Origin: Parelaphostrongylus tenuis
Taxonomy: Eukaryota > Nematoda > Chromadorea > Rhabditida > Metastrongylidae
Reading direction: 5' to 3'
Assembly: GCA_019055375.1 (NCBI GenBank)
Contig: JAHQIW010005527.1
Location: 1-64,000, forward strand
DNA: 64,000 nt
The number at the start of each line of letters is the position of its first letter. The stretch's first letter is position 1. The translations under genes were made by a program, and so were the position numbers. Shown piece after piece: positions 3,171 through 44,644 of this stretch. Below the pieces are notes generated by a model. The model did no database searches. It was not told the origin of the DNA and saw only the letters and a program-made list of their open reading frames with translations.

Positions 3171-6159
3171 TCTTTGAAATCCTTCATTTTTCAGCAGTGA
3201 TACCACGTCCTTGTGAGGAAAGATAAACAAACTTTCAATCCTTATTATGCATTCGTATCGCCTGTCTGGAGCACGCAACTTGAAAGCACATTTCTGCATT
3301 TAAAACACCTCTGATAAAGGTCTATGGAGAGGTAAATGTGGGGGGTGAGTACCGAGAATACTTGGAGACAGTTATTCCTGACCAATGGTTTGCATAATGC
3401 CGATGTTCCAAGCCCGTTATTCGAACAATAGTGTCCCTTTCCGCTCAGAATTCTCACTTGTCTATAAGTTCTCAACTTTTTCACACATGCGTGGACTCTG
3501 AATAATTTGAAACAAGCGGATAATTGATATAGAATTGGTTATGGTGAAAGCTATCGCATATCGCAATATTATTGTGTAATGAACTGGTATCGATGAACCA
3601 TAAATTACTTACTGTTCTCCATTTTTCTATGGGATGGTTTTGGGTCTTGAACAAAGCTAGAGAAGATCAAAATTGAAAAATTCTTTGTGATTTATTTGTA
3701 CAGTGCATTAGCAACTCACTGAATGCTAAATCCAGTAAGATTGCACAGTAAACCAGCATTTTCTCTACACAGTTCCTGCACATATAAATCATATGTGCGA
3801 GTGGAGAAAATCTTGCTCTATCAAAGTAATAGAAGAAATGCAAAAATTTTTGGAAGATAAACAAAAACCCTTTATCAAACAAAGAAAGTCGCTCAGTTCG
3901 CTCTGCGTGCATCGATTTTTTTAGCTGTACCTTAGGGGTCAATGCTATCCAATTTCCTTCATGTTTCAGTGACGTGCATTGAAATTTCGTATACGTTTTT
4001 GTTTTTTCAATCATTTGACCTCTTTATTGACAAGGAATTTTACAGGCGTATTATATGAAAGCTGTTCATGAGGGAATCGAGGCTCAACTGACGTAGTTCG
4101 GGCTTCCTAGAAATTCGTCGCCAAACACTGGTTTTCTTATGTTATACAGGGACAAATAAAAAAGTGTAACATCGACCGGGTGTTCTCACTATCCACTCCG
4201 CTGGAAACACAACAAGCACATGAATGTGTAGAGGAAATCTTTTATGATCGAGTCACAAGTTTTGACTGCAGATTCTTTCGAGTGAATTGAAAGATTCGAA
4301 TTCCAATAGCAATTTTTCAACTCCGACATAGGGCGTTCAACCGCGACACCGATGCAGTTGGCCGTAAGTGAATTCACGGTTAGCATCCTCTGCCTACTGC
4401 CAGCCCACACGCTAATCGTAAAAACAGCACCGCGTATGTAAAACGCCATCTTTATTTTCCTGTTACTACTCTGTAGTGAAACGGTTCTCTACAGGAAAAA
4501 CGTTGCAGTTTTAGTCATTGAAACGTATGCTATTTAATGGTCATAGTCATAGTTCCCGGAAGCAGTTGTGTACTCTGAGAGAAATGATGCGTTGTGTGAT
4601 ATAGTAGATTGTCACAAGTATCTGCTCTATGTCACAGAGTTATAAAAATGCTTTTTTCGAAAAAAAAACCACGTAGCGCACTACCCAAAGATTCGAATTT
4701 CAAATGATTGTAAACACTCCCAAAGAAAAGCTTTTGTCCAGCAAAATGGACTGTTTGCTTGTCATTTGTCCCAGGTAGCGTGAAAGTACCCAAGAACTTT
4801 CCGCACCAAAATTGTGCTACATCTTTTGAATTCGATATCTTACTTATACAGATTTCCTTTGAAATAAGATTATAACATCAGTGCTTATTTGATGTGAATT
4901 TTTATTTGTGCAAAAAGTCATGGATTTATATCGTTGGAATCACAAATCAGATGGTGGTGATTGAATTCAAGCAGTATACGTGAGAGTCAGCTGTATTAAC
5001 CAAAACTTTTTTCAAACTCTTTCAGTATCACGAGTACCATTGATGGTACACAGCGTCTTTGTATGGCTTCTCGTCAAGCACAGAATTTTCAGTAGAGTCA
5101 TTCGATAGCCGAAGAAATTGGAATACCAGACCAAGATCTTCACTAAAGTCAGTAGTATTTTCGTAAGTTGTAAGAGTTGTGGTTCGAATACTGTGTTAAT
5201 TTCCGAAAGTTTTTTTTTAGTGAATGTAGCAATAAGCGATCTTGTTTTTTTTCCCCAATGAGTATAGTGTAATTTTGCACTGTGTTTGGTGAACTTTTCA
5301 TCAGACAAGGCTTTTTACAAAAGTTTTCCCAAAAGTCATTTAATAGTTTGAAAACGGCGTATCAACTGTAAGCTTGATTTTCAAGCAAAGATTTTTGTTA
5401 CGCTGTAGTAACGACGATGAAATATTTCGCTTCGGCGTTTTCCTTTCCTAGCGATTATACTAACGTGACACCTGCCTTTTGTGGCTTACTCGCCGTTCAT
5501 TAAGATTTTAAGTGATCTTATTATGGACAGCTCAAAACTCTACATTCGAATAGTAAGCTTTCTTCATTAAAAGGCTTCTTCCATGTGCTGTAATAAGGAG
5601 AGAAGAATACGATCCGTTCTGCGGAGTGAATATGTGTCGTCCAGGCTTGTACTTATTTGACTTTTTTTTCTGAACATAATATTCCATTAAAATTTCTAAA
5701 TTTTTCGGATAGCTTGAGATGGGCAGTTCTATTACTAAATTTCTTCATAAAAGTCTTTGGAATGTGTCGTTTGCAACAAGGAAAAAAGAAGTTTTAACGT
5801 TTTCTATGTCCATCGCTGCCTTTGAGCGTGCTTTTGATGAATATTTAGTGACGATTAGTTAAACTTTCGACAGAAGAATCAGAATAATTTCAAGTTTCTG
5901 CTTGAATTTAAAAAGACTTCATGGAGTGCTGTGAGGGTGACGAAAAGATTGCGTTTTTTGTGCTCCAATTAGTTAGCCAATTTTTTGAAATTTAAAGCAT
6001 GTTTATTTGTTAAATAAAGTGAAAATTAATAGCCATGTATCTATAGAACAACAAAAACAATTTCTTTTCTTTATCCCGAAGTGCTTTGTTTAGACCACGC
6101 TCAAATTTCAATATATCCTTTCATCATTATTTGAGCCAACATGTCATGTGGTCTGGTAA

Positions 6160-6223
6160 GGGCTCTTGTACCAGCCCGAGACACGTGTTTCGTCCTTACA
6201 GACTCATCAGCCGGGCAGAACCC
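6160..6223 (-). ncRNA. Type I hammerhead ribozyme (family A)
   Basis: On the minus strand the sequence reads outer stem I GGGUUCU, inner stem I GCCCGG, core CUGAUGA, stem II GUCU-GUAA-GGAC, core GAAA, a very short stem III (A-U plus C-G, loop ACGU) and cleavage triplet GUC, then inner stem I UCGGGC, an unpaired run (UGGUACA) and outer stem I AGAGCCC. All catalytic core bases of the hammerhead consensus are present. Predicted self-cleavage lies between plus positions 6180 and 6179. Compared with sister copies it has one extra base in the stem I internal loop. The short stem III is typical of retroelement hammerheads, which often cleave best as dimers. Confidence 0.88.
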
Positions 6224-6680
6224 GTCGTCTGTCGATCTTTTCATAGCCAGTTCTCTCGGGAGCGTCACACTCCTTATATATAGTTATCGACGACGTTCGC
6301 TTTATACTCTATGTCCAGGTGAAACATTCACCTAACCACCGAGTGTTGCGCACTCGATTGCTCATTGGCTGGTACTTTTGTCATAATTATACCTTTATCT
6401 CGAGCGCTTTGTTTAGACCACGCTCAAATTTCAATATGTCCTTTCATCATTATTTGAGCAACATGTCATGTGGTCTGTAAGGGTTCTTGTACAGGTACAT
6501 AAAAAGATAAAGTGTATAATTATTGACAAAAGTACCAGCCAATGAGCAATTGAGTGCACAACACTCGGTGTTAGGTGGATGTTTCACCTGCATAGAGTGT
6601 AAAGCGAACGTCGTCGATAACTATATATAAGGAGTGTGACGCTCCCGAGAGAACTGGCTATGAAACGATCAACAGACGAC

Positions 6681-6743
6681 GGGTTCTGCCCGGCTGATGA
6701 GTCTGTAAGGACGAAACACGTGTCTCGGGCTGTACAAGAGCCC
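6681..6743 (+). ncRNA. Type I hammerhead ribozyme (family A)
   Basis: The ribozyme has outer stem I GGGUUCU (6681-6687) pairing AGAGCCC (6737-6743), inner stem I GCCCGG (6688-6693) pairing UCGGGC (6725-6730), CUGAUGA at 6694-6700, stem II GUCU/GGAC closed by a GUAA loop, GAAA, a two-pair stem III with ACGU loop, and triplet GUC with predicted cleavage after 6724. The asymmetric six-base bulge UGUACA in stem I opposite loop II is the arrangement that supports the loop-loop contact of natural hammerheads. All core nucleotides are conserved. Confidence 0.9.
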
Positions 6744-7124
6744 TTACCAGACCACATGACATGTTGGCTCGAATAATGATAAAAGAATTTCTTTTCTATA
6801 AATACCCCTAAATTATAAATCCATCCAGAACGGTGAGAGGTTTTGTTAATAAGTAACAAAACTCCATCTGAATTCATTTTATTTGACCACTTTTGGCAGT
6901 GGTAAGATGTTACAATATACCAAATATCACTTTTTCTCATTGAGTAAATTTAAACATCTTATCACCGCTAAGGCGGTCAAATAAAATGATTCCTGATTGA
7001 TTATTGATGTTCAGTATCTGTCAGCATAACTGGGTTCAATGTCAATAGTGAGTGCCCTCGCCAGAAACGCTGACAGTTGGCTGCTGACAAATGCTTTTTA
7101 TTGTGGTAAGAGTGATGTCAAAAC

Positions 7125-7436: not shown

Positions 7437-7886
7437 GAATCTTTGAGAGTGAAATGTAAGTCTCTTTATACTCTTACAGCAACCCACGAAGAGCTTTTTG
7501 ATGTGAAGATTTGATTTTAGAATTGCCATGATTTATGCCAGCAAATGGCTTTCAAACTTTGCATGAAAAGCTATTCACAAAGTACTTCACTCCTGTTGTA
7601 CCAGCGCAGTATACATATAATATATTTTTCCAAAGCCAGATAACTACTGTGATTGTCTAGAATTGAGCTATCTGATGAGTACTGAGTCTCTGGCTTAAAA
7701 GCTTCTCCTGTGAAAAAAGCATGGTCCCGAAAAGGTTTTCTACGCTTTTTTGTTAGCGACCTGGCATCGCATCCACTGTGAAACATCATTTTTGACGAAC
7801 TATCTATTGCTTAATGGCAAATACACGCTCAAAATATTTTCGAAAAAAAAAAGGATGTTTGAAGTTTAAGCGAGGTTAAAACGCCA

Positions 7887-7935
7887 GGGCCATACACATG
7901 TGTTTCGAAGGTCTCGTCCTTCTCGTCAGTGACCC
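7887..7935 (-). ncRNA. Type I hammerhead ribozyme (family C)
   Basis: On the minus strand: stem I GGGUCA, core CUGACGA, stem II GAAGG-ACGAGA-CCUUC (five Watson-Crick pairs), GAAA, a self-complementary stem III CACAUGUG, U16.1 and A17 (triplet GUA), then stem I UGGCCC, which pairs all six positions with GGGUCA (one U-G). Compared with the family member at 44939-44987, the second stem II pair is A-U instead of G-C, a compensatory double change. All core bases match the hammerhead consensus. Confidence 0.85.
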
Positions 7936-8131
7936 ACCCCCACATTAAGCTCTGCACTCTAGCAAAGGGAGGCGTATGTGGTGACGGCACAGTGTACATT
8001 GACAATGTGTCATGAGCACTTCACAGTAGATGGATCTCGGTTGGTAGAACAAAATGGTACATGACATCGGCATGTTCCACCAGTCGAGATCCATCGACTG
8101 TGAAGTGGTGATGGCACAGTGTCATAGTACA

Positions 8132-8180
8132 CTGTGCCGGACGAGGAGGGCGCGACCTCCGAAACACGTGTGTATGGCCT
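8132..8180 (+). ncRNA. Decayed family C hammerhead
   Basis: This is the mirror arm of 7887-7935. Stem II (GGAGG/CCUCC with loop GCGCGA), GAAA, stem III CACGUGUG and the GUA triplet survive, but the first core strand reads CGGACGA instead of CUGACGA. The invariant U4 is therefore lost and the ribozyme should be inactive. Confidence 0.6.
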
Positions 8181-8409
8181 TGGGTACCAACTTCGTATAG
8201 ACTTCAAACATTCTCCTTTTTTTTGAAATTATCCATTGCTTTCTGATTTCAGTTATTACGATATCTTTTGAGTATTGCATATAATGATACACATTGATCT
8301 GAGAGATTCATACCACGATTTTCTTTGTACAACTTATATAATACGGGAGAATTATAAGAACAGTAGAATGCGTAATGTGTGGGAGCTTCTTAGCCACACA
8401 TCACCTTTA

Positions 8410-9488
8410 TCACCTGTCGTCCCGTTGATCGTCGAGTGACTCGAGCGGGTACCAGCAACTCTTCCATTTTTCCCTATCGCGTGCAAGAGTAGCCCAGTGG
8501 GTCCTCCTTGCTCTAGGAATTCGCTGAGCATCATATCTTTCTTCCATCGCTTTCGTGAAGAAATCGGACCAACGGGTCAGTGGTCTCCTTTAGAGCGCTT
8601 GACGTCCCGAGGAATCCAGTCGGTAACGGCTCTCGTCCATCGGTTGTCGTTGAAGCGCATCACGTGTCCGGCCCACCTTATTTTCGATATCCTGGCGTGT
8701 AGAACGGCGTCTCTGATTTTCGATCGTTGACGTAGGTCGGAAGTTCGGATCCTTTGTCTCATTTGCGAAATACGGGATACTCCTAGCATCGACCTTTCGA
8801 CTGCGCGTTCGATAACGGCAAGTGATCTTTCATCCTGCTTACGTAGCGACCAGGTTTCTGCTGCATACGTTAGGGCAGGGATAATTGTCGAGTCGAAAAG
8901 GTGGGCACGGAGTCGGATGTTCTTTGTCCTCTTCACTACATCTTCGATGCTCTTAAACGTTCCCCAAGCCGCTCGTTTCCTCCTGCTCAACTCTGGGGCT
9001 AGGTCGTTCATCATGTTGATTTCACGACCTAGATAGATGTAACTGGAGCATTCGGAAATTGTCGTTCCGTTGAGCGTGAATGGGGCATTAGAAACCCATC
9101 CGTTCCTCATGAACATTGTTTTCGTTAGATTCAGTTGAAAACCGATCTTTCCACAGGCGTTGTCGAAATCAGTCAACATTCGTTCCGCTTGGCTGATGTT
9201 TGGTGTTATGAGAACGATATCGTCAGCAAAGCGAAGATGGTTTAACTGTCGACCGTCAATTTTCACTCCCATTTCGTCCCATTCTAATGTTCGCATGACG
9301 TTTTGTAGGGTGGCAGTGAATAGTTTTGGCGATATTGTATCGCCTTGTCGAACCCCTCTTCTTACTTCAATGGTGATATTGTTGTAGAATGGAGATATTC
9401 TGGTCGTGAAATCTTTATAAAGCTCACGAAGGATCATTATGTACCGAGTAGGGGCGCCCTGGTTATCCAGAGCCTCTATAACACACAT
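8410..9488 (-). pseudogene. RTE-clade reverse transcriptase, 5'-truncated and frameshifted
   Basis: This minus-strand frame of about 303 codons (9488 to 8577) covers RT from just after motif A to the C-terminal region: ISPFYNNITIEVRRGVRQGD (motif B area, about 9400-9340), LRFADDIVLI with both catalytic aspartates (about 9240-9211), LNLTKTMFMRNGW, the YLGREINMMNDLAPELSRRK block and IRWAGHVMRFNDNRWTRAV near the end. Around 8580-8590 the frame slips; the conserved [20 protein letters not shown] text continues in another frame to a DDQRDDR ending and a TGA at 8410. The endonuclease and first half of RT are missing, so it is a 5'-truncated copy, the usual outcome of target-primed reverse transcription. 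It is the best-preserved RTE fragment here and sits 500 bp upstream of host paralogue 1. Confidence 0.92.
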
Positions 9489-9987
9489 AAGAGTTATATC
9501 TACTCCAAAAGCATACAGATTTGTGGAGATAATCGAGAAGTATCAAATCATTGCAGGAAATCTAGAATTATTCCATAAAAGAGAAAAAATTTTAACTTAT
9601 TATCAAATTTCGCGCGTCATATGCGAATCGAGCTGCATGCGGCGATTTCTACCGTGGTCTGGAGTGGGTTGAAAGGTATTTTCATTGACCCAATTTTCTT
9701 TGAAAATTTGGCATGCATTCCTTCTCAGCCAATTCTTCTGTTCTCTGGAGATTATATCGCGAAACTTACATCGAAAGGTCTCGCCCAAAACTGAGCGCAT
9801 AAGAAATGACTAAAGTACTTTGAGAAGTGGAGGAACTTCCACGCCGGCGTCATCCACATATGGGGCTGAGTGACAAGTTCGCTTTTATCTTGTAATTGAA
9901 CTGATGCAAAAATGGGCAATTTGGTTTTAGCTAAGTCTACTTTGATTGTTTAGATTTTTGGCGATAAAAATCAATATTCCTACATAA
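9489..9987. other. Spacer between the RTE copy and paralogue 1; no gene seen
   Basis: It contains short open frames only. The minus-strand frame at 9603-9800 (65 codons, REQKNWLRRNACQIFKENW) lacks recognisable domains. This interval should hold the promoter of paralogue 1, but I see no clear core promoter or trans-splice motif beyond AT-rich stretches. Confidence 0.4.
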
Positions 9988-11565
9988 ATGGCAAACCCTC
10001 TGTGCAATCCTTTCATGATTTCACTGATAGCCATAATCTCAACAGTGCTGGGGTGTGGAGTTATGCCTGCAGGTCAAGGTAAAGAACAGAAAATTTCTAT
10101 GAAAGCAAAAATAATTACAGTACCAAAATTTTTGTAAAAGCAGAAATACTTTCATTGAGATAGAAGTTCATGAACCCACATCTGAACGAGAGTATATGTT
10201 ACATGTTGTGTAGTCTACCTGGTATTCCGAGGCTTTTAGTGAAGGGACCACTAGTTTAAACCACCGTTCGAGAAAGATAAGAATATTGAATAATATAATT
10301 ATTAGTGTTTAACTAGTCAAAAAGTAACGAAGCTTTCCTGCAGCGAACACTCGGATCTTCACCGTCACCGGCTTCACTTTGCCTGTTGCGATGGTCTACA
10401 CTGGAGAAGCCACAGTTTCTAGTCAGGTTTCTGGCATTGCAAGTAACAAAGGAGGAGCTCAGACATTAGTCAGACGTCTTGTGATGCAGGCAGTAAGTTG
10501 TTAACTCTTATACTTCGAGTGTTTTTTCTTTTTCGCCATTTTTGGAAAGTGCGAGAGGTGCGCACCACATTTCTACACATTTCCCCAGCCTCTTATTGCT
10601 AACATGACTTACACAGCTTCACATAAATTCATTCATTGGATGTAATGCAAAATAAACTTTTTGAATTATGCCAAAAACCTCTCTCTTCAGGTCTTTGACG
10701 TTCTCGAAAGCCAAGCTCGTAGCGTACTTCTATCTGATGCTGTGATAGCTGCCATTTTGGGTCAACTTACTGTGAATATCGCTTACGAACCACTTGAATG
10801 CAAGAAAGTTGCTCTCAAGCCAGACACGGATATGCGTTTGTGTTCCGTATTGATTGACTGCTTTGATGAATTTAAGGAAATATATCAGGCATCGAAAAAG
10901 CAGAACTGTGATTGCTTACGTTTTGAAAAACAAAAAATTTCTGAAAAATTACTGGAATTTATACTCGAATTAGAGGGAAATGACATAGTAGCATTTATGC
11001 TGGAACCTCTGAAATTAGTGATATTTTTTGCAATGGTTTTCCTACGTCTTTTTCTTGTGTAAAAATGACATGATGATCTACGTATCAACTGATGATTCAG
11101 AAGATTTTGCCAGTATGAAAGAAAAATGATAGCTCGTAATTGTCTTAGCATTCTCACTTTATTTGGTTATTCTCAGCTTTGGAAGGTGTCTTTCTGAGAT
11201 TCATGATTTCTTACAGAAGACAGGATGGACAATAAATGTATTATTGTCAGCAACACGGTGGCGGGAATTTGCAAAATGATGGCGGTGGGGCAGATGATGG
11301 AATGTAATAAAGCCATGGCGATTACGCCTATTCCTCCGCAGCACTTGACAGTTGGAGGAACTATCTCGGTTTGAACAGCTTTCTATTTTTGAGCGAGTCT
11401 CGTCTTCTGAAGAGAAAAAATTGTGTAGACCACAAACATCATCATGGCGAACTGGTCAAGAACGATGTGGCAAAGTGTTAGCGAACAGAGCTGTTCGAAA
11501 TATTGGCATCGGGTCCGTTCCGCTCAAACTTCTTTGCAGCATCTGCCATTGTCAGCGGAAACTGA
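9988..11565 (+). pseudogene. Secreted-protein family paralogue 1 (five exons, damaged)
   Basis: Exons by alignment to paralogues 2 and 3: 9988-10078 (ATG, hydrophobic leader MANPLCNPFMISLIAIIS, ends at CAAG|GTAAAG), 10344-10492 (FTVTGFTLPVAMVYTGE... ending MQA|GTAAGT), 10691 to about 10829/10835 (VFDVLESQARSVLL...ILGQLTVNIAYEPLEC), 11217-11368 (CIIVSNTVAGICKMM...HLTVGGTIS) and 11429-11565 (TTNIIMANWSRTMWQSV...). Phases match the other copies. Two lesions are visible. The exon 3 donor, GT in the paralogues, is AT at 10830-10831 (a nearby GTTTGT at 10836 keeps phase and could substitute). Exon 5 carries two single-base insertions, near 11479 and 11495, that garble the segment between MWQSV and SNFFAAS. 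A poly(A) signal AATAAA is at 11634-11639. It is probably a pseudogene unless the shifts are assembly errors. The family is unrecognised; an N-terminal signal peptide suggests secretion. Confidence 0.7.
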
Positions 11566-14600: not shown

Positions 14601-15215
14601 AATGGTCCTATCAATATCTAAGGGCAGAGTAAGGGCTTAAAATTTTCGTTTGAAACGCCTTAGGCGGAAGATACGGAACAAATCACGTGGCGAAGGGTTG
14701 CTTCCACTGGTCAAAACGAAGGAGGATACTCATAGGAAGTATTTGGCCACAAGGTCCCCGTTTCACATTGGACGTCTAGATGTGAACACATAGGAGTGAT
14801 AAGGAGAGGTGGGAATTTGATTGGACGCATGGAACTGTCATAAAGGTATTCAGCTAAAAAAATTACGTAGAGGGCGTAGCCGCTAATATTCAGTGGCGCA
14901 ATCACCACGATAAAATGTTTTCGTAGCACTGAATAAAGGTGAGTAATGAAAGATTGACACCCACAGAATGAACTCTCTTTGTCAGTGAGGTTCCAACCCT
15001 TAAAGTTCACTAATAATAGAGAAACTATTTGAAGTTATTGATGAAGTGGCATCTTACGCGGAGCAGGTTTGGCTAGGGCGCTTCCAAGAATAAAAGAAAA
15101 TGATTTGTATCTTCTTCTGTTTAGCCGCCCGAGGTGTTATTAATAGTATCTATTGAATATCAGCGAAGCATATAACGATACAGTTAATAATGCAGCACGA
15201 ATGCTCCAACAGTCG
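11640..15215. other. Gene-poor stretch downstream of paralogue 1
   Basis: I see no supported complete gene. It contains a diverged repeat of 2800-3170 (at 11970-12240) and two related direct segments near 13330-13390 and 13490-13550 (each with AGCGAAAG(A/T)(A/T)AAG, TTTCACA and GCGC followed by a T run). A minus-strand open frame at 14711-15010 is listed separately as a possible exon. Confidence 0.4.
14711..15010 (-). CDS. Possible isolated exon, unknown product
   Basis: This is a 99-codon minus-strand open frame with balanced composition and a hydrophobic stretch HFIVVIAPLNISGYALYVIF followed by a cysteine-containing tail (PMCSHLDVQCETGTLWPNTS). I recognise no family. No neighbouring exon could be linked to it, and no strong acceptor or donor defines its ends. 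It may be a chance frame or an exon of a diverged membrane protein. Confidence 0.15.
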   Translation of the reverse strand: MNFKGWNLTDKESSFCGCQSFITHLYSVLRKHFIVVIAPLNISGYALYVIFLAEYLYDSSMRPIKFPPLLITPMCSHLDVQCETGTLWPNTSYEYPPSF

Positions 15216-15219
15216 TGTT

Positions 15220-15256
15220 GGCTTACGTTCCGGCAAGGTTCGCCATCTTCAGAGCC
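15220..15256 (-). ncRNA. Hammerhead-like motif at the PLE 3' end
   Basis: On the minus strand: stem I GGCU pairing AGCC, CUGAAGA (CUGANGA consensus), a stem II of at least three pairs (GGC...GCC), then GGAA in place of GAAA and a GUA triplet. It has the composition of the minimal hammerheads reported in Penelope-like elements, but the second core strand is mutated, so activity is unlikely. Confidence 0.5.
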
Positions 15257-15528
15257 TGGAAAGGTCAAATTGATTCGCAAATTATTAAATCAAAGGCCTT
15301 CATAACCCAACACAAAACGTAAGAGATTGATTTTTGAGTCGCATGGAAAAACTTCATCTCAAAAACACTCACCGCTTAGATGTTTTAGGTCATTCAATTA
15401 ATCATTGAAGACCTGCCACTTGGAGTCTATGATAATGTGAGACTGTACCTGGCTCAGGTCGGGAATATCAGCCTGAGGTATGGTGCTAGGTCACGCGTTA
15501 TTACGAGGCATTCCTCTTTGCGGTTCAT

Positions 15529-15795
15529 TTATGGGCCTTTGCTATGTATCTTAAAGGTTTCCAAAGTTTTACGCGTAGATTTTCTCGATTCCTGTGCAAG
15601 GACCGTAAATTTAACGTCAAAAACTGCTCCTCTATGCTTCTGTTCCTTATGCGTGCCTAGTGGGGTTTTTGGGTCAGAGTTACGTTTTCCAGCTAGGTGC
15701 TCTTTTACGCGGATGCAGAGTGGTCTACCCGTTTCGCCAATATACTCATCCACGCATGCCTCGTGAGAGATCAGGGAAATTGTAGCCGACCTCAT
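15529..15795 (-). pseudogene. GIY-YIG endonuclease domain of left PLE
   Basis: The 88-codon frame contains CVDEYIGETGRPLCIRVKEHLAGKRNSD, corresponding to the GIY-YIG nuclease fold (the YIGETGRPL segment) with its downstream arginine. In PLEs this domain nicks target DNA to prime reverse transcription. It is separated from the RT by a frame change between 15800 and 15877. The right-hand copy at 18873-19221 has a shift in the same motif. Confidence 0.85.
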
Positions 15796-15876
15796 GAAGT
15801 CGCCGTCTCTGCCGTTTGGGCAAGCTTTGCAGTCATTGGTTTCGCAGAGACGATCTTACAGTCGGTTGCGGACTAA

Positions 15877-16942
15877 TTAGCGTTTTAGTGTTTTTGGTGG
15901 TATCTCGACTACTGCTACGGAATTATCAAAACCTGTTCTTTTTAGGCAGCGTTTAATGGCTGCACTCACTTTGTCGGAAATAAAAGGCAAGATGAATGAA
16001 CCTTTAAACTCGCTAGACCTTCCGTACAGGGGCGCCAAATTTACTCTAAATTTAACTTGAGAATCTGCTATCGTGTTGTAGCCATTAGAGATGGCTATTT
16101 TTCGCGCCAAGCTCAGGGACTCTACGTTGTGTTCTTTTCCTGTGCACACATTAGCAGCTGTTCGAACATGTTCTTTATAAGTGCGCATTTTGTGTGTGAG
16201 GGATGAGCGGATAGGTAGTGAACCAGGACTTTGCGTTGCAGGAGTTTTTAGAGAGGTTAACTTGAACGTTTGAAAATGGAAGCCTATTTGCCTTAGGTTT
16301 CTCACGGGTGAACGTTATGTACTCTGACTGGCTATTTAGCAACTCAAAACATTTGTCCATCTCCTCTTGCGTTGAGCAGACGACAAAACCATCATCAATA
16401 TACCTACAGTAGAGTAATGGCCGGAGATCGATTATTGGTGCCCCTGCTCTAGACATAAAAGCGATGGCAAGGGTCGGAGCTAGTCGTTGTTCCATTGCCA
16501 GTCCTCTGATCTGCGCAAATAATTCCCAGACCATCTGAAGAATGAGCAGCATAAGCACTCTTTTAAGAGAGCCACGACCTGCCGAATGGAGAAACCATAC
16601 ATTTTCGTAGTTCGTTCGTGCTCCGTTAGAAGCTCGCATATGGCTTGCATTGCGGACTCATTCGACACGTTTGTATAAAGAGCGGTTACGTCGAACGATT
16701 CCATTACGTACGCGTTGTTCGGAGACGCGTTACGTAGACGATCCAAGAACATTTGGGCATTGGTAAGATGGGCTGAAATGTGTTTTAGTAGTTGGACTAG
16801 TATTACGTTTAAAAAACCACCTTATTCTATCCGTTGGCCCGTCTACACAGCTGATGATGGGTCTAACTTTGAATTTTGATGGATCAGTAGACGCAAGATC
16901 GTGAGTACATACCAACTTATGAGTCTTGATAAGTAAGTACAA
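15877..16942 (-). pseudogene. Reverse transcriptase region of left PLE (multiple frames)
   Basis: RT text is spread over overlapping minus-strand frames at 16730-16942 (KVRPIISCVDGPTDRI), 16480-16752 (VMESFDVTALYTNVSNES, motif A with its catalytic Asp), 16175-16639 (LLYCRYIDDGFVVCSTQEEM, motif C with both aspartates) and 15877-16305 (FILPFISDKVSAAIKRCLKR). Catalytic residues survive but at least three frameshifts break the protein. It reads toward the GIY-YIG domain on the same strand. Confidence 0.85.
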
Positions 16943-17640
16943 GATGGGGCGTGAATGGTGGACTAAGTTTTAGTGAGAAATAACGGGATTTTAAATCAGC
17001 CGAACTTGCTATTTTTACCCATTCACTATTCAACTTTCGATATTGTTTTTGAAATTCTTTATTGGATGATGGACGATAGAGTGTAGTGTCCTCTAGGTGT
17101 TTTTTTAGTTATCTCAACATCCAACTTATGGGGACTACCACAAACTCTCCTCCCTTATCACTAACTGATAGTCGAATGGTTTTAGACTTTATTAGCTCCC
17201 GTGTCTGACGTATACCGATTTTCTGCGTTGATGTTAGGTTGGAGCTAGACTTTTTGCGCGATAGTGATTAAGGATTCTAGGAGTTTCGCCCGAAATGCGA
17301 AAATTGATATCCACTTTATTATTAGGGCCTTGTTGTCTGAAGAACGGTAGAGGAAAAGGAGGTGTTGGCAATGCCCCTACATTTTCCTGCTGTTCGTGCC
17401 TGTTGGGTGGTTCTAGTGTAGCTTTATAACGGAGCCGATCTTAAGGTCTTGCAACTCGCTTGCGATACTACACATGGTTTCCTTAGAAATGGATTGCGCT
17501 GGTGAGAAGCTTGGGCCCATTTCTAAGAGCGAGCGCGCACTATCGGGGAGAGTCATGCCTCCTAACACAGTGATCCTTGATGTTCCTGGCACATTATTGA
17601 TGTTAGTTAGACTCTTAGGGCTTTCACGAGCTTAGGGAAA

Positions 17641-19530
17641 AAACATCTAGAGGACACTATGCTCCATCGTCGATCATCCAATAAGGAATTTCAAAAACAA
17701 TATGGAAAGTTGAATAGTGAATGGGTAAAATTAGCAAGTTCGACTGGTTTGAAATCTTCCGTTATTTCTCGACTAAGACTTAGTCCACCATCATGCCCCG
17801 TCTTGTACTTACTTATTAAGACCCATAAGTTGGTATGTACTGATGTTTCTTGCGTCTACTGATCCATCAAAATTCAAAGTTAGACCTATCATCAGTTGTG
17901 TAGACGGGCCAACGGATAGAATAAGGTGGTTTTTAAATTTAATACTAGTCCAACTACTAAAACACATTTCAGCCCATCTTACCAATGCCCAAATGTTCTT
18001 GGATCGTCTACGCAACGCGTCTCCGAACAACGCGTACGTAATGGAATCGTTCGACGTAACCGCTCTTTATACAAACGTGTCGAATGAGTCCGCAATGCAA
18101 GCCATATGCGAGCTTCTAACGGAGCACGAACGAACTACGAAAATGCATGGCTTCTCCATGCGCAGGTCGTGGCTCTCTTAAAAGAGTGCTTATGCTGCTC
18201 ATTCTTCAGATGGTCTGGGAATTATTTTGCGCAGATCAGAGGACTGGCAATGGAACAACGACTAGCTGCGACCCTTGCCATCGCTTTTATGTCTAGAGCA
18301 GGGGCACCATAATCGATCTCCGGCCATTACTCTACTGTAGGTATATTGATGATGGTTTTGTCGTCTGCTCAACGCAAGAGGAGATGGACAAATGTTTTGA
18401 GTTGCTAAATAGCCAGTCAGAGTACATAACGTTCACCCGTGAGAAACCTAAGGCAAATAGGCTTCCATTTTCAAACGTTCAAGTTAACCTCTCTAGAAAC
18501 TCCTGCAACGCAAAGTACGACCTGGTTCACTACCTATCCGCTCATCCCTCACACACAAAATGCGCACTTATAAAGAACATGTTTCGAACAGCTGCTAATG
18601 TGTGCACAGGAAAAGAACACAAGCGTAGAGTCCCTGAGCTTGGCGCGAAAAATAGCCATCTCTAATGGCTACAACACGATAGGAGCTTCTCGAGTTAAAT
18701 TTAGAGGAAATTGGCGCCCCCATACGGAAGGTCTAGCGAGTATAAACTTCCATTCATCCTGCCTTTTCTTTCCAACAAAGTGAGTGCAGCCATTCAACGC
18801 TGCCTAAAAAGAACAGGTTTTGATAATTCCGTAGCAGCAGTCGAGATACCACCAAAAGCACTAAAATGCCAATTAGTCCACAACCGGCTGTATGATCGCC
18901 TCTGTGAAACCAGCAATTGCAAAGCTTGCCCAAACGGCAGCGACGGCGACTGCATGAGGTCGGGTACAATTTACTTGATCTCTTGCGAGGCATGCGGGGA
19001 TGAATATATTGAGCGAAACGGGTAGACCACTCTGCATACGCGTGAAAGAGCACCTAGCTGGGAAACGTAACTCTGACCCAAAAACCCCACAAGGAACGCA
19101 TAAGGAACAGGAGCATGGAGGAGCAGTTTTTGACGTTAAATTTACGGTCCTTGCACAGGAATCGAAAACATCTACGCGTAAAACTTTGGAAACCTTTAAG
19201 ATACATAGCAAAGGCCCATAAATGAACCGCAAAGAGGAATGCCTCGTAATAACGCGTGACCTAGCACCATATCTCAGGCTGATATTCCCGACCTGAGCCA
19301 GGTACAGTCTCACATTATCATAGACTCCAAGTGGCAGGTCTTCAATGATTAATTGAATGACCTAAAACATCTAAGCGGTGAGTGTTTTTGAGATGAAGTT
19401 TTTCCTATGCGACCCAAAAATTAATCTTCTACGTTTTCTGTTAGGGTAATGAAGGCCTTTGATTTAATAATTTGCGAATCAAATTGACCTTTCCAGGCTC
19501 TGATGGTCAATGCCGGCGAAAACTCAGAGT
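17641..19530 (+). mobile_element. Penelope-like element, right copy (plus strand, 5'-truncated)
   Basis: This is a plus-strand mirror of the left copy, starting abruptly inside the N-terminal region at the text equivalent to HLEDT(T/M)LYRP (about 17645) and running through RT to GIY-YIG and the 3' end. Landmarks: LLIKTHKLVC (about 17808), FKVRPIISCVDGPTDRIRWFLNLILVQLL (about 17873-17960), SFDVTALYTNV (about 18045), YIDDGFVVC (about 18339), and GIY-YIG text around 18960-19100. The sequence is nearly identical to the left copy, with scattered substitutions and indels. Frameshifts near 18170, 18310 and 19010 inactivate it. Together the two copies form a 1.9 kb inverted repeat without a spacer. 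Confidence 0.9.
19496..19530 (+). ncRNA. Decayed hammerhead-like motif at right PLE 3' end
   Basis: GGCU followed by CUGAUGG, a CCGGC segment, GAAA and ACUCAGAG corresponds positionally to the motif at 15220-15256 in the left copy. The last core base of the first strand (A9) is changed and stem II is poorly formed, so this is a relic. Confidence 0.35.
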
Positions 19531-31130: not shown

Positions 31131-32374
31131 TTGGGTTGGGATCTCCTGAATCGTCCTACGCATTGTCATGGCTTGTCAACATTTAAGTATCATAGCTTTC
31201 CCGTCACTGGAATACTTCCGGAAAAAGAAGAAGTTATAAGACATCAATCATATGCTCGAGGAGTAAAGCCTCTTTTGAATTCAAAAATGACGAGTTTTCT
31301 ATTAGCGCGGTATTGACTTGTTGCCTGAGAGATAGTAGAAATGTGCTCAGGCTAACGAAGCTTATTGAGAATAGTGTTTATAAGCAATTCTGATTAATTC
31401 TGGTCAAAATGCTTGGTGTTTATCTCTTCAGTGCCAAGTAATGCGAAGACTTAATATTTATGAACAGAAAAACCTATAAAATCGTACGTAACGACTCACA
31501 GTCGCTGATCTTAGTAAATCACCCTCAGCTCCAGAACACGTGAATTTGCAAAGTAAGGGTAGCCAATGCTCCGTTTTGTAAGTATTAGATGACAAAAAAG
31601 CTCTCAGTTCCGTTTTTTTATCAAACATCGTTATAATTGATCAGTATTCCTTCCTAAACCGCGATGACCCATGTCTAGTGTGGAAGCATTAGGTGTCCCT
31701 TGGCCGTGAGTAAGGTAAATCACCTCTTTAGATAAAGAATCATCTCTAATGCTGCCATTTTATATTCTACCCCAATCGCGTTGAAAAGCTGCGATCTTAT
31801 CCATAACCTCACTACCTCTCAATGCTTCTTTCAAAATTATCACTTTTTTCGTTGATAATTCATGCTGTATGTTCTAATTAGTATTAGCTAACACAAGCAA
31901 ATGAGCAAAGGTAGTTGCCTTATAGCGTTTACCAAAAGAATATTTTATGAGTGCATTAGAGACTCATTGTTAACAATAACATTTTCCCACAGCATGATTT
32001 CTTTTCTGCGTCGCAACAGTGGCCAGCCTTCTTATTCGAGCAGTGAGGGAGCTATCAAATGTCTAACAGAAAAAAACATTGAATGGTTATCATATGGCTT
32101 ACCATTCTCTCCTGTATTTACGAATACGAAAGTGGTTACTTTTTTCGAATATCACTGATTTACATGAAACTGTAGCCTGCAACTGGTGGAAAACCGAGTT
32201 TCTGCTGCAATCACAAATTTAAATTTGAAACACAATGATACCAGATGATCCCAAGATCGAACAACTGTTCAAAAAATTAACCTATGAAATAGTAATGTGC
32301 ACTTGACATTCAATGGACAACTCGAAAGACCGACTTTCTTGAATTAATAATATAAAACTTTGCAAATGAGAAGA
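31131..32374. other. Spacer; no gene seen
   Basis: The short frames here (for example 31901-32158 plus) have no recognisable domains. No repeats were identified. Confidence 0.4.
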
Positions 32375-32478
32375 AAAGCTTAGAAAACTAAACTTCATTT
32401 GAAGCTTCACAAGGTTGGTATCCTTTTCCCCAGTCGATTGCTTTTCTTTCCGGTCGATGGGCTCTCGCGTTTGTTTGT

Positions 32479-32514
32479 GACTGACATTTCGGCGGACACG
32501 CCTTCTTCAGAGCC
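32479..32514 (-). ncRNA. Penelope-type minimal hammerhead-like motif
   Basis: On the minus strand: stem I GGCU/AGUC, CUGAAGA, stem II GGCG-UGUC-CGCC with four perfect pairs, GAAA, U and triplet GUC. There is an unpaired A between the first core strand and stem II, as in other motifs of this kind here. Stem III would be nearly absent in a monomer, so cleavage would need a dimer. Confidence 0.6.
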
Positions 32515-32579
32515 TGAACGTATTATTCGTTGTAGCATTATTTATATGACTATATGCTGTAAGGGAAAAGAAGAGAATA

Positions 32580-32668
32580 AATTGAAAATCTACGGTGTTG
32601 AATGTAGTATTGTAAGGAGAGGTTTTCCCTGGATCAGTTATCGCTTATCAACACCGTAGATTTTCAAT
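32580..32668. repeat. Perfect inner inverted repeat
   Basis: Two 21 bp arms containing GAAAATCTACGGTGTTG and its reverse complement are separated by about 47 bp. They can form a stable hairpin inside the larger foldback at 32375-33170. Confidence 0.85.
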
Positions 32669-32689
32669 TTCTTCTTCCCTTTTTCCAGC

Positions 32690-33000
32690 ATAAAGGATAA
32701 AGGCTAAAGCTCTCGGCGTTGATCAATCCCTGAGGGATGCGCCATGCATTCGACTTCAATTTTTAAGTTCGTTTGAAGTGATTGAATGCACATCTGGCCT
32801 TTACAATGACTCGCGGAGGCCTCCCGCTGAACCGAGTCAGTGCTGCTTATCCTCCCAGACAAGTCTGAGACCTGTCTGGTACCAATTTACCAACCCCGGA
32901 GGGATGGATGGCTTGGTGAGCCATGAGCGCGAGATCGAACCAGTTACCTCGTGTGCGACGCAGGGCACCTCTAACCACTGCGCCACATGCGCTCTTTTCC
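32690..33000 (-). repeat. tRNA-derived SINE, family 1, near full length
   Basis: The 5' tRNA-like head lies at 33000-32917 on the minus strand: GCGCATGTGGCGCAGTGG, then GTTAGAGGTGCCC, and box B GGTTCGATC. The body continues through ACAGGTCTCAGACTTGTCTGG to a tail at CGCATCCCTCAGGGATTG. A diverged full copy is at 51632-51936 in the same orientation, and a head fragment is at 40930-41035 on the plus strand. It is not a tRNA gene because the T-arm and acceptor do not close. Confidence 0.75.
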
Positions 33001-33044
33001 AGCATATAGTCATATAAATAAAGCTACAACGAATAATACGTTCA

Positions 33045-33080
33045 GGCTCTGAAGAAAGCGTATTCACCGAAATGTCAGCC
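33045..33080 (+). ncRNA. Penelope-type hammerhead-like motif, decayed
   Basis: GGCU, CUGAAGA, a weak stem II (AGCG...CACC), GAAA, U, GUC and AGCC are present. Stem I pairs perfectly (GGCU/AGCC) but stem II has lost pairs that are intact in the mirror arm at 32479-32514. Confidence 0.45.
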
Positions 33081-33784
33081 ACAAGCAAACGCGAAAACCC
33101 ATTGACCGGAAAGAAGAACAATCGATTGGGAAAAAGATACCAACCTCGTGAAGCTTCAAATGAAGATTAGTTTTCTAGGCTGTTTTTCTCATTTTCAAAG
33201 ATTCAATGAGCAGTTTCGTAAAGGCACTGTTTGAAACTCGCTGACTCTGTACACGCTTGTACTAGAAGCGCAATAAATATACTGTAAGGTAAGTAATCGT
33301 CTTTCGGCAATTCATATATTGCGATGCAAAAGTGCTACACGGAATGTATCACAAAGCGAAACTGCTACATCACAAAACTGCTTCAAGGAGGAAATATTGA
33401 GACACGAATCGGCTTATTCAGCTTTCACCAGGGTGTGCATAAAACTCATAACCACACCAGTGATTCTGCAGCTTCAAAAGTACTTTCGATTTGACATTAG
33501 CTAAGCAAACAGAACGAGAATTAATATGTATCAAGTCAGAGTATTTGCCAACTTACAAAACCTAAAAGAATTATCCAGCTTAATATACTGCCTTGATCAC
33601 TGCTGTAATATCACTTACCCAGTGGAAGAGATATTTCCAGAATGATTCCACCTTGAATTAGGTGCTTTTGCAAGTAAAGAGTTCTTTGAAATTCATTGGC
33701 CAAGCCACTCCTTGTTGTGAAGTAGTTTTATCAAGTGGAACAAATTCTATATGTACCCACTGACAAAAATGTTAGGATTATACC

Positions 33785-33935
33785 GTTCTTTTCGAGTGTT
33801 TTCTTGAGATCACGCTCAAATTTCAACACATATCGGAATTATTGTTTGAGCCAACATGCCATGTGGTTTGTTAAGTCAGCCTATTTAACAGGCCACATGA
33901 CATGTTGGCTCAAATAATAATTACGAATTGTTAGA
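33785..33935. repeat. Family A terminal palindrome without ribozyme
   Basis: TTTGAGCCAACATGCCATG and its mirror CATGACATGTTGGCTCAAA face each other around a 25 bp core. These are the end blocks of the family A foldback elements, together with the upstream GATCACGCTCAAATTTCAA block. The whole ribozyme interior is missing, so this is a deletion derivative. Confidence 0.7.
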
Positions 33936-34309
33936 ATTGTTTCAATTTACACTTTCAGGCAAATCATTTTCTTGTGTGGTACAGTAGTGTTCGCTTTCAA
34001 ACGCTTTGGTGGTTGTATATCCCGACCGCAGACGCCTGAAGGGCTCAAGGAGTGAAATTGATCACTTAGTATAAAAAACAACACTTCGCACTTGTAGATT
34101 GATTGCTTTCATCACTTTTGCAGAAGTGAGATATGCCGCTAAAGAGGTCATCCGCCACACAAATAGAATGAAACTTTACAATAGAAATTGCAAATATTAG
34201 GTTTAAGTTTGTTTATACATAGTGGGAAGTGTGAAGTTGACGACGTTCCACAAACAACTTTCCTAACTTTCCTAAGATAAGGATATGCATATTTTGAGCC
34301 ATAGGTCTA

Positions 34310-34357
34310 GTGCTATATAGGCGCCTATTTCGTCCTATTGGGACTCATCAGTAGCAC
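34310..34357 (-). ncRNA. Type I hammerhead ribozyme (family B)
   Basis: On the minus strand: stem I GUGCUA pairing UAGCAC perfectly, CUGAUGA, stem II GUCC-CAAUA-GGAC (four pairs), GAAA, stem III UAG...CUA around a GCGC centre (palindromic UAGGCGCCUA), then U16.1 and A17. The cleavage triplet is AUA, an allowed NUH. All core nucleotides are present. Confidence 0.9.
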
Positions 34358-34759
34358 CCTCCCTCGGTTCCGTCGATCCCTTGAGGTGAAACAATCCTCC
34401 AAAGGAACCGACGCCGAGTAAAATCAAGCACCCAAAGTAGGATGATGTTATTACCTGACTTTGTGGTGACCGGCAGTCGAGCTTACGGCTTTCAAAATGA
34501 ACTATACTTCTGCTATCGACTGCTTTTTTACAGACCCGCTCAAAATGATTTAATCTGATAAGGATATGCATATTTTGAGCCATAGGTCTAGTGCTATATA
34601 GGCGCCGCGCTTAGTTCATTTTTAAAAGCCGTGAGCTCGACTGCCGGTCACCACAAAGTCAGGTAATAACATCATCCTACTTTGGGTGCTTAATTTTACT
34701 CGGCGTCGGTTCCTTTGGAGGATTGTTTCACCTCAAGGGATCGACGGAACCGAGGGAGG

Positions 34760-34807
34760 GTGCTACTGATGAGTCCCAATAGGACGAAATAGGCGCCTAT
34801 ATAGCAC
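34760..34807 (+). ncRNA. Type I hammerhead ribozyme (family B), mirror copy
   Basis: It is identical in core and stems to the minus-strand copy at 34310-34357: GUGCUA at 34760-34765, CUGAUGA at 34766-34772, stem II GUCC/GGAC, GAAA, palindromic stem III, predicted cleavage after A at 34801, and UAGCAC at 34802-34807. The sequence CUGAUGAGUCC...GGACGAAA is very close to hammerheads described in other animal retroelements. Confidence 0.9.
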
Positions 34808-35359
34808 TAGACCTATGGCTCAAAATATGCATTTCCTAAGATACTTAAAACTTATAATATGCAGTGTGCGCGAGTCTCAACTCGGTGTCACGTCAGTGGC
34901 GTTCTTATCAACGCCCATTCAATTTTTCATTTCGATGCATTGTAAGCCCTATAAAGTGTAGGATTCTTGGACCTCACAACAAGACTTGACCCCTTGTGCT
35001 AATTGTTTCTCCTTCTTTCGTTTCTGACGTGGTTTTTCTTTTCCTCCCTCATATTGGCTTTTCGTATATCATCTCACTCGCCTCCTATTACTGTATCCTT
35101 CACTAAAAATGAGCAAAATCTCATGCTTTGGCAATCAGTCGTCCTATGCGTACACATAGTATCTGATAGGCACAAGAAATGGGAGAGGATACTTCTTGAG
35201 AAATTGGCGTCGATTCTTGCAAATGTGGAGTGGTTCAGCCATGACGCAATACTTTCTCGTTAGTGAAGAGCTTCGACAAACAAGCACCAGCTCGACAAAT
35301 CAATCGCTCAGTAAACTTTGGAAGGCATTTTTCTCAGTGATATAGAGTGATGTGCAAAT

Positions 35360-35579: not shown

Positions 35580-36240
35580 ATAACCTTCTTTATCGGTTAG
35601 CCAAGCTGCAGATCTGTTCGAAACACCCAGTTCTCGTCCGAAATCACGAAATCGCAATGCGTTCCCAAAATCAGTCATTCAATGGACTGTAGAACAGCTG
35701 GCGACAAATATCTACTCTTATAGCGACTTAAGCTTCATTGAGCTCGTTCGCATTTTGTCGTGGCTTTTTGTGGACAAAGCTAAGTTGATGATGAGCTAGC
35801 ACTGTTTGAGAAACATCAACTTTGGTGCCAGATCGCGACGAGGGTCCATCATTCGAAGCAGCAATTGAATATTAGTTGTTCAAATTTGTTGCACGTCCGA
35901 ACGAGTCTTGTCTTCGAGGTCAAGATTTCCAGCAGTAAAGCGCTGAAACCAGTACCCAGCAGCAGATTTGCTTGTTGTGCCTTCCCTTTCATCTCTGCAG
36001 ATTTCATCGATTAGTGTTCTCTGTGAAAGACCCTTTCCAAGTGATGCAATAAAAACAAACTTCTATCGTATTGTTAGACATGACAAAGGCTTGTAACAAG
36101 GTGAAAATAAAGACGAATAATACCTAAGCCTCCAGTGCGAAAATCATAGATAAGAAGCTGTAATATTCCCATGAAATGGAGGTGAGTTATCTCACTCTTA
36201 TAAGAGTGCCCCAAAACTTTCTTTTCAACCGTAGTATCTG
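35580..36240 (-). mobile_element. Mariner-type DNA transposon relic
   Basis: The minus strand begins near 36236 with a terminal segment GAAAGTTTTGGGGCACTC and an ATG (MSNNTIEV) near 36080. It continues GLSQRTLIDEICRDEREGTT, then SAAGYWFQRFTAGNLDLEDK, the helix-turn-helix end and linker of mariner transposases, then a stop. Further left, decayed catalytic-region text includes ANELNEA, VDICRQL and SDENWVF (the region that carries the first DDE aspartate). The DDD triad is not intact. The second relic at 55600-55985 has the same terminal sequence, so they belong to one family. Confidence 0.7.
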
Positions 36241-36399
36241 TCAGAAACCAGCCGTCAATGGTTTGGCACAGATAGTCGGTATCGACATTTAACTCAGTCA
36301 CGCTGGCAGATTCTAGGTATTGGATGTTCAAAAAGAATTCTTTTTATTTAATCTTTCTAGGCGGGGCTATGATGTTGCAGATAAACCCAGTGATGTAGT

Positions 36400-37129: not shown

Positions 37130-37735
37130 ATAGCACTGTAGCATGCAGAATAAAATCATGTTTTATATGCACCGTACATTTTCCTTTTTACCTCATTTGA
37201 ATTTCGCTGGGCAAATTTCTTTCCTTAAAGTGCTAGTACTCCTTCGATTGCACAAATTTCGAAAAACCAAAAATTTTGTCTAGTTATTTAGAGATCTTCT
37301 TTGATGACTCTGTAAGAGGGAAATCATTCGTGCTTTACTGCCAACCTGACAAAGCTCTTTCTTTATGCTAAGTATTTATTCAGTAGCTTATGTATCAGTG
37401 ATTCCATCGTTGTGCTTATTTCCTTGAGAGGCCGTTTCACTGCAGTGCAATTGGGAAAATAAGGCGACTTTCAAATTTTCGACGAGCTTGTTTATCTGCT
37501 AGTTCTCAAGCAGGAGGCGGGACGATCAATCGATGGTCTGACGTGTTAGGCATGTGAAGTGCAGCTCGCTATTCAATTGAGAATTGTTTATCCGTTCTAA
37601 AAGAAATTCCAGAAAAAAAAACGATTGACTCATATAATAGAAGATCTTCTCTAAACGACCATGTGCTTGTCGTGCTAGCGGCAAATTTTACGCATGATAA
37701 CAATGAAAGTGCCCTGTGGATGTGAGAAATAATTC
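37130..37735. repeat. Dispersed repeat, copy 1
   Basis: Blocks in order: AGCACTGTAGCATGCAGAATAA, GAGGCGGGACGATC region, TATTCAATTGAGAATTGTTT, and TTTACGCATGATAACAATGAAAG...GTGAGAAATAATT. The same series occurs at 38820-39385 with substitutions, and its first block occurs near 21115. The family A element at 37735 is inserted exactly at its end. Probably a non-autonomous DNA transposon. Confidence 0.5.
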
Positions 37736-37776
37736 TTTCATTATTATTTGAGCCAACATGTCATGTGGTCTGGTAA

Positions 37777-37839
37777 GGGCTCTTGTACAGCCCGAGACAC
37801 GTGTTTCGTCCTTACAGACTCATCAGCCGGGCAGAACCC
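37777..37839 (-). ncRNA. Type I hammerhead ribozyme (family A)
   Basis: The core and helices match the 6681-6743 ribozyme exactly: GCCCGG/UCGGGC, CUGAUGA, GUCU-GUAA-GGAC, GAAA, short stem III and GUC, with the UGUACA bulge and outer GGGUUCU/AGAGCCC pairing. Confidence 0.9.
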
Positions 37840-38108
37840 GTCGTCTGTCGATCTTTTTATAGCCAGTTCTCTCGGGAGCGTTACACTCCCTATAGAGAGT
37901 TGTCGATGACGTACGTTTTACACTCTATGTCAAGTGAAATTTTTACCTAACACAGAGTGTTTTCGCACTCGATTGTTAGCTGGCTAGTACTTTTATCATA
38001 TTATAACTTTCCTTCGAGTGTTTATTAAGACCACGCTTAAAGTTCAATAGATCCTTTCATTATTATTTGAGCCAACTTGTCATGTGGATAAAAAGATTGA
38101 CAGACGAC

Positions 38109-38171
38109 GGGTTCTACCTGGCTGATGAGTCTGTAAGGACGAAATACGTGTCTCGGGCTGTACAAGATCCC
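38109..38171 (+). ncRNA. Type I hammerhead ribozyme (family A), weakened stem I
   Basis: The catalytic core is intact (CUGAUGA, GAAA, GUC). Inner stem I is ACCUGG against UCGGGC, which loses the outermost pair and gains a U-G. Stem III starts A-U then U-G. It probably still folds but is weaker than its mirror copy. Confidence 0.8.
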
Positions 38172-42691: not shown

Positions 42692-42726
42692 GGCTCTGAA
42701 GAAGGCGAACTGTCGAAACGTCAGCT
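42692..42726 (+). ncRNA. Penelope-type minimal hammerhead-like motif
   Basis: GGCU, CUGAAGA, a short stem II (GGC...GUC), GAAA, CGUC and AGCU occur in order. The palindromic ACGU at stem III would allow dimer formation, as reported for hammerheads of Penelope-like elements. It is followed by AACACCTCG, a block shared with the ends of other foldbacks here (50090, 51430, 58570, 58690). No RT coding sequence is adjacent, so it is probably a solitary PLE 3' end. Confidence 0.55.
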
Positions 42727-44585: not shown

Positions 44586-44644
44586 TTCAAAGTAATTCCA
44601 AAAAAAAAATGAATGTCCAAAGCCTGAAAGAGGTTGGTACGCCA

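Follow-up and report, generated by a model that had tools for sequence, protein, structure and literature searches.

Hammerhead retrozymes in the nematode Parelaphostrongylus tenuis form a multi-copy family whose insertions bear marks of Penelope-like elements

Metazoan retrozymes without long terminal repeats (LTRs) are small repeats that carry type I hammerhead ribozymes and give RNAs of about 170-400 nt, circular forms of which have been demonstrated (Cervera and de la Pena 2020, PMC7229834). In the available text of that article the hosts named include rotifers, platyhelminths, annelids, crustaceans and insects but no nematodes, and Penelope-like elements (PLEs) are regarded as a strong candidate for their mobilisation in trans. 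PLE insertions are described as head-to-head inverted pseudo-LTRs (pLTRs) with one optional tail of 31 bp and a target duplication of 8-10 bp, and pLTRs have been reported to move an unrelated gene in trans (PMC3846280). Relatively little is known of PLE transposition; both strands of a target are cut and extended by a purified PLE protein of lizard origin, whose reverse transcriptase (RT) begins synthesis at two neighbouring internal sites that delimit the tail, and the study, in the part available, reports no difference in start site between the strands (PMC11167929). In a stretch of 64,000 nt from the nematode Parelaphostrongylus tenuis (assembly GCA_019055375.1, contig JAHQIW010005527.1, positions 1 to 64,000; hereafter the window), an insertion designated E1 (6071-6785) was identified as a member of a multi-copy family of metazoan-type retrozymes whose insertions bear PLE marks. 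No report of a nematode retrozyme or of a foldback retrozyme insertion was found in the open-access literature searched, and the string 'nematod' is absent from the main texts of PMC7229834 and PMC7761336.

The nematode families have in common with the metazoan retrozymes of PMC7229834 type I hammerheads, small tandem units, the lack of LTRs, target duplications of more than 4 bp and co-existing PLEs. Foldback insertions and a PLE tail, both present in the nematode families, are not mentioned in the available text of that article, and circular RNA was shown there, whereas it is predicted for the nematode families. With the plant LTR retrozymes treated in the same article they share a non-autonomous, hammerhead-bearing organisation and a circular-RNA model; the plant elements, in contrast, have type III hammerheads, LTRs and 4-bp duplications, and the nematode families have type I hammerheads and no LTRs.

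From the letters of the window, an element at 6075..6784 had been claimed to carry a complete type I hammerhead in each of its two opposite arms (the original prediction). Both were confirmed by matches to the type I model of Rfam (RF00163; gathering cut-off, 34 bits), each of 34.9 bits and E 5.5e-5. The core bases, the stem III, the stem I bulge and the GUAA loop II that had been claimed are likewise visible, stem III being short and palindromic and the bulge consisting of six bases on the 3′ strand; the fold energy of the hammerhead region by itself is unremarkable (z -0.87). The element is indeed one insertion, and its limits were moved to 6071-6785 according to exact 12-bp target duplications on either side. 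The left arm of E1 begins a few nt past a hammerhead cleavage site and spans a full unit plus the hammerhead up to its outer end, and the right arm begins with about 10 nt of filler and runs from unit position u102 through the hammerhead to its own outer end. The two arms are 98%, 92% and 96% complementary in their three longest inverted stretches (142, 62 and 47 nt, respectively).

Eight retrozyme insertions were found in the window, five of family A (E1, E3, E4, E5 and E6), one of family B (E2) and two of family C (E7 and E8), and those of families B and C likewise carry outward arms. The related copies foreseen at 37.7, 45.7 and 62.6 kb are real members of family A (E3, E4 and E5), and the list had missed a family A remnant at 33.8 kb, the family B insertion at 34.3 kb and the family C insertions at 7.8 and 44.6 kb. 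Two hammerhead cores are present in 5/8 insertions (E1, E2, E3, E4 and E7), all with the minus-strand core on the left and the plus-strand core on the right. Within the window, the arms of E1 (96.8%) and of E4 (97.4%) resemble each other more than they do other copies; those of E3 (93.8%) are not closer to each other than to the other window copies.

In the whole genome (481.5 Mb), RF00163 gave at least 31 matches, at least 20 of them over the cut-off, a strong undercount given that scoring covered 74 of the 119,811 first-look candidates and that the window copies are absent from the list; zero matches were obtained in 14 control genomes. Covariance-model matches over the cut-off thus occur both in the window and elsewhere, and other copies are found genome-wide. 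Twenty stretches covering 21 of the 31 matches were examined as genomic loci (L numbers). Head-to-tail tandems of the same unit occur for family A (L043; three hammerheads over the cut-off, 320-bp period) and for family B (L023; four Rfam matches, one over the cut-off, 284-285-bp period), family B elsewhere being present as foldbacks, and because of these tandems families A (320-bp unit) and B (285-bp unit) are classified from their sequences as metazoan-type retrozymes, which makes the predicted link to retrozymes firm. The two families gave no match to each other at E 1e-5 besides a common hairpin motif. When the unit is read as a circular trimer, the longest frame starting with ATG has 102 codons in family A, on the antisense strand, and 18 codons in family B, and no stop-to-stop frame in either unit exceeds 146 codons; the units, at 320 and 285 bp, are too short to encode an RT and a GIY-YIG endonuclease. 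An extra hammerhead-core sequence outside families A, B and C (CTGATGAGCCTGGAAAGGCGAAAC) was observed at L020, position 718(+).

When the genome was searched with one arm of E1, there were 2826 first-look candidates for family A, and the 40 that were scored yielded 72 matches. Numerous contigs carry copies that are 94-96% identical to the E1 arm along most of that arm, and many of these copies have exact duplications. Thirty family A loci were cut out and three duplicates removed (L042, the mirror of L041; L044, equal to L043; L049, equal to L048), which left 27 young insertions including E1; older nested copies in L052, L053, L054 and L062 and a 47-nt middle piece of L047 were also left out of the counts. 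Nineteen of the 27 are foldbacks, a share that may be inflated by the two chances of a match that two arms offer, and eight have a single orientation. The arms read outward, with the 3′ ends outermost, in all 19 foldbacks, and all 19 centres are different. The arms overlap by at least 3 nt at 6/19 joins compared with a null of 4.5%, a rough figure in which BLAST overlaps are set against an exact-match null. Because all 19 centres differ and overlaps occur at the joins, each foldback is, as judged from these sequences, made separately at insertion, and the palindrome is not copied as such. Under a strict motif, two or more intact hammerheads in the same orientation occur in 3/27 insertions, all three of single orientation, and in none of the 19 foldbacks. 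The part of the original prediction that took inverted arms as the architecture of the element was not supported, and the foldback is better read as an insertion product than as the mobile form, since the centres differ, single-orientation copies exist and no foldback has, by the strict motif, two like-oriented intact hammerheads. As two such hammerheads would be needed for unit release, foldbacks are predicted to be dead ends unable to free unit RNA, and tandem copies are the likely sources.

The outer ends, whose positions in the unit (u) were counted from the cleavage site, cluster in family A at two positions about 45 nt apart (short, u60-74; long, u108-122), compared with 30-40 nt for the tails of PLEs in the published accounts available. 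Of the 19 foldbacks, 14 combine a short end with a long one, one is short at both ends, none is long at both and four have an end beyond both classes, so that 14/15 with both ends classified are short plus long. In family B (short, u16-56; long, u74-94), 7/8 foldbacks delimited by duplications are short plus long and E2 is short plus short. Pooled over the two families, 21/23 classified foldbacks have one end of each kind (P 3e-5 against even chance) and none has two long ends, the class limits having been fixed after the ends were seen and L026 (u56/u74) being borderline. Six family B foldbacks that lack a clear duplication (L010, L011, of which L012 is the mirror, L014, L015, L016 and L017) were excluded; by their BLAST ends, four are short plus long, one is short plus short and one has an unclassifiable end. 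An earlier figure of 25/28, which included BLAST ends, is superseded by 21/23. The eight single-orientation insertions of family A end long in five cases and short in three. A cluster of cDNA 5′ ends at u76-112 (14/46) had a nominal P of 5e-4, or 0.026 after scanning of all windows, was weakened further by a search query that itself started near u100, and was not used; 5′ ends no more than 6 nt away from that site of cleavage numbered 3/46 against 1.6 expected.

A hairpin is predicted in family A by folding, the E4 copy included (AGACCAC..GCTCAAAT / ATTTGAGC..GTGGTCT), and in this model the short start site falls inside its loop and the long start site past its 3′ side. The motif recurs in family B and in three more divergent repeats, so the pairing rests on folding plus motif recurrence rather than on covariation. 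In these three repeats (L045, 2116(-); L060, 715(+); L054, 1901(-)), a hairpin resembling GGCTCAAA..TTTGAGC lies outside good matches to families A and B, and they are possibly further families with the same mover; five of the eight unassigned matches to the motif look like chance or like a divergent family B copy and its mirror.

Flanking matches scored 10 or more in 17/28 family A insertions, compared with 0.66% of 756 mismatched flank pairs, the 28 including the mirror duplicate L042 and one of the 17 being an AT repeat; the duplication of L038, an AT repeat, is little informative. In a first set, made up of the window copies and mostly family B loci, a score of 8 or more was found in 17/30 insertions versus 6.4% of 870 pairs. 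The duplications are mostly 11-15 bp in family A, longer than the 8-10 bp given for PLEs (PMC3846280, in its available part), and 8-14 bp in 11 family B insertions chosen for having one, among which those of L013 (9 bp) and L019 (8 bp) are weak.

PLEs are abundant in this genome: of 7112 first-look candidates, those scored gave at least 150 RT matches, in which open frames reach 840 aa. Among the matches listed, pairs on opposite strands within 5 kb read outward in 8/8 cases as judged by eye, the window pair included, although two pairs on contig C1811 may be mirror images of each other. These two (8122-11041 and 42410-45333) point to a large inverted duplication or an assembly effect. The window PLE has arms at 15249-17105(-) and 17638-19503(+), 94.6% identical over 1.87 kb, the left arm having been traced to 15098. 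As far as the published descriptions of endonuclease-bearing PLEs were available, the retrozymes share with them terminal repeats arranged head to head, a tail of tens of nt on one side, target-site duplications, a hammerhead in the repeat and start sites downstream of the hammerhead cut; in contrast, PLEs encode an RT and a GIY-YIG endonuclease and have minimal hammerheads, whereas the retrozyme units have no such frame and fuller hammerheads. The 3′ ends of the PLEs read here (AGGCTCTGANGA.GGC....GCCGAAACGTYAGCC) resemble the minimal hammerheads of published PLEs, the label resting on the motif and on that resemblance, and the motif was not scored by Rfam at E values up to 1 in L065/L066 and up to 10 at 32.3-33.3 kb. 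Similar motifs with varying stem II letters were observed in the window at 42692(+) and 32510(-), in L029 at 8655(-), in L052 at 3011(-) and in L040 at 1231(-)/1351(+), the two copies in L040 again with minus on the left and plus on the right. In the PLE-like pLTR foldback at 32308-33208, the two ends differ in length by about 46 nt. A repeat nested in this foldback (32690-32999) recurs at 51627-51926.

The head-to-head arms, the one-sided tail and the target duplication are marks of PLEs borne by the retrozymes, and the best reading of these sequences is that retrozymes are moved in trans by PLE machinery that primes on both target strands. Tandem copies would be transcribed and the hammerheads would cut the RNA into units, of 320 nt in family A, which would probably be closed to circles. 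A Penelope-like RT-endonuclease would take up this RNA in trans and cut the two target strands about 11-15 bp apart, and every free 3′ end would prime its own cDNA at one of two sites, which lie about 65 and 115 nt downstream of the hammerhead cut, one in the loop of the predicted stem-loop and the other beyond it. The two cDNAs would extend inward from the flanks and be joined midway, leaving the RNA 3′ ends outward, usually one short and one long. For E1 as one insertion of a non-autonomous metazoan-type retrozyme moved in this way, a probability of about 0.7 is given.

Several observations weigh against this reading. A gap or filler rather than an overlap lies at 8/19 centres, and 4/19 family A foldbacks have an end in neither class. 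The arm variants are private (one shared among 37 + 62), so that a common template is not demonstrated, and a test of one template for both arms by shared variants was uninformative, the variants being arm-specific. Duplication scores of 7 or less, within the range of the controls, were obtained in 10/28 family A insertions. The window PLE shows no clear target duplication and its ends differ by about 100 nt instead of by a tail of 30-45 nt, a result that slightly lowers the probability of this reading (0.72 to 0.70). Units A and B match none of four stretches, taken near the 5′ coding region and from the 3′ end, of two PLE copies (C531, which seems 5′-truncated, and C834, which is itself a foldback in the part read), so neither copy can be named as the partner, and the retrozyme hairpin GGCTCAAA..TTTGAGCG.GGTCT was not found in these two partly read copies. 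Finally, the rule of one short and one long end is not predicted by the lizard PLE study, which, in its available part, saw no strand difference in start site.

In an unlikely alternative, movement is again of PLE type but the second arm is made by snap-back, a single cDNA or antisense template priming itself, a route put forward for rotifer PLE inverted repeats with junction palindromes (PMC3846280, as far as available). Arm starts only 7, 12, 20 and 26 nt apart in the unit, in 4/19 foldbacks, would suit it, and in the remaining 15/19 they lie 43-123 nt apart; moreover, its simple version predicts equal outer ends, whereas the two ends differ in nearly all classified foldbacks.

Twin priming yields outward arms. 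A long interspersed nuclear element (LINE), such as the RTE of the window, might have moved the retrozymes, the foldbacks being products of ordinary twin priming. One of the RTE-type frames shares 99% identity with a protein annotated in P. tenuis, for which reason this LINE is perhaps recently active. This reading is more doubtful still, as the ends in families A and B lie at two fixed internal positions around the predicted stem-loop, without poly(A), and the one-sided tail is a PLE mark.

That a foldback DNA transposon or a miniature inverted-repeat transposable element (MITE) acquired a hammerhead, the palindrome being moved or copied as DNA, is very improbable: long inverted arms and target duplications do resemble foldback DNA elements, and against this stand the absence of a fixed palindrome, the single-orientation insertions, some with several tandem units, and two kinds of end instead of one terminal sequence. 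Equally improbable is a decayed satellite or rearranged PLE pLTRs without independent mobility: PLEs of this genome carry a minimal-hammerhead-like motif, so that the retrozymes may descend from pLTRs, and yet near-identical copies with exact duplications are dispersed over many contigs, and stem III and the stem I bulge of the retrozyme hammerheads are lacking in the PLE motif.

The features of the window are collected in Table 1. Right of E1, a palindrome-like stretch at 6870-6990 (GACCAC..GTGGTAAGATG / CATCTTATCACCGC..GGTCAAATAAAATGA) is possibly a MITE, and a match to alpha_tmRNA at 36143-36391(+) lies below threshold (18.7 bits versus 50, E 0.16) and is almost surely due to chance.

Table 1. 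Positions of retrozyme insertions, their parts and other features in the window
Feature	Position	Strand	Remarks
Left target-site duplication of E1	6059-6070		AATTTCTTTTCT, exact 12 bp
E1 left arm, family A	6071-6494	-	Ends outward in long end (tail)
Type I hammerhead, E1 left arm	6174-6216	-	RF00163, 34.9 bits, E 5.5e-5
Predicted cut, E1 left hammerhead	between 6180 and 6179	-	Read from sequence
Internal copy of tail stem-loop in E1	6415-6476	-	AGACCAC..GCTCAAAT / ATTTGAGC..GTGGTCT
E1 right arm, family A	6495-6785	+	Ends outward in short end
Type I hammerhead, E1 right arm	6688-6730	+	RF00163, 34.9 bits
Predicted cut, E1 right hammerhead	after 6724	+	Read from sequence
Right target-site duplication of E1	6786-6797		AATTTCTTTTCT, exact 12 bp
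E8, family C foldback	7813-8229		Duplication TATCYATTGCTT; core 7929(-), from core-motif scan
RTE-type reverse transcriptase frame	8577-9542	-	99% identical over 93% of length to annotated Parelaphostrongylus tenuis protein
Decayed PLE insertion, itself a foldback	15098-19503		RT and endonuclease pieces reading outward
PLE-like pLTR foldback	32308-33208		Possible 8-bp duplication ATTCAATG; minimal-hammerhead-like motif 32510(-)
E6, short family A foldback	33777-33921		No hammerhead; one end of each class (long, short)
E2, family B foldback	34280-34831		Exact 12-bp duplication TTTCCTAAGATA on both sides; both ends short; hammerheads 34310-34357(-) and 34760-34807(+), weaker RF00163 matches, each 29.5 bits
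E3, family A foldback	37728-38252		Left end short and right end long; hammerheads 37790-37832(-), RF00163, 34.9 bits, and 38103-38150(+), weak Rfam match called type III, E 0.13
E7, family C foldback	44552-45037		Duplication TACTCATRTTTACA; cores 44687(-) and 44945(+), from core-motif scan
E4, family A foldback	45705-46124		Hammerheads 45765-45807(-) and 45983-46025(+), RF00163, each 34.9 bits
RTE-type reverse transcriptase frame	61552-62025	+	
E5, family A foldback, old and divergent	62545-63141		Hammerhead core 63033(+), from core-motif scan; clear target duplication not found

These retrozymes add nematodes to the hosts named in the available text of PMC7229834. The PLE insertion marks make the proposed PLE link directly testable in vitro. 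As a general statement, that animal retrozymes are mobilised in trans by Penelope-like machinery and that each foldback is one insertion whose strands start at different fixed sites around one RNA stem-loop, never both long, has about even odds. If it is true, two RT protomers would cooperate on one RNA recognition hairpin in a two-strand target-primed mechanism, and foldbacks would be dead-end by-products with the rarer tandem copies as sources. The one-short, one-long rule, which is either new or peculiar to the nematode system, would constrain PLE transposition.

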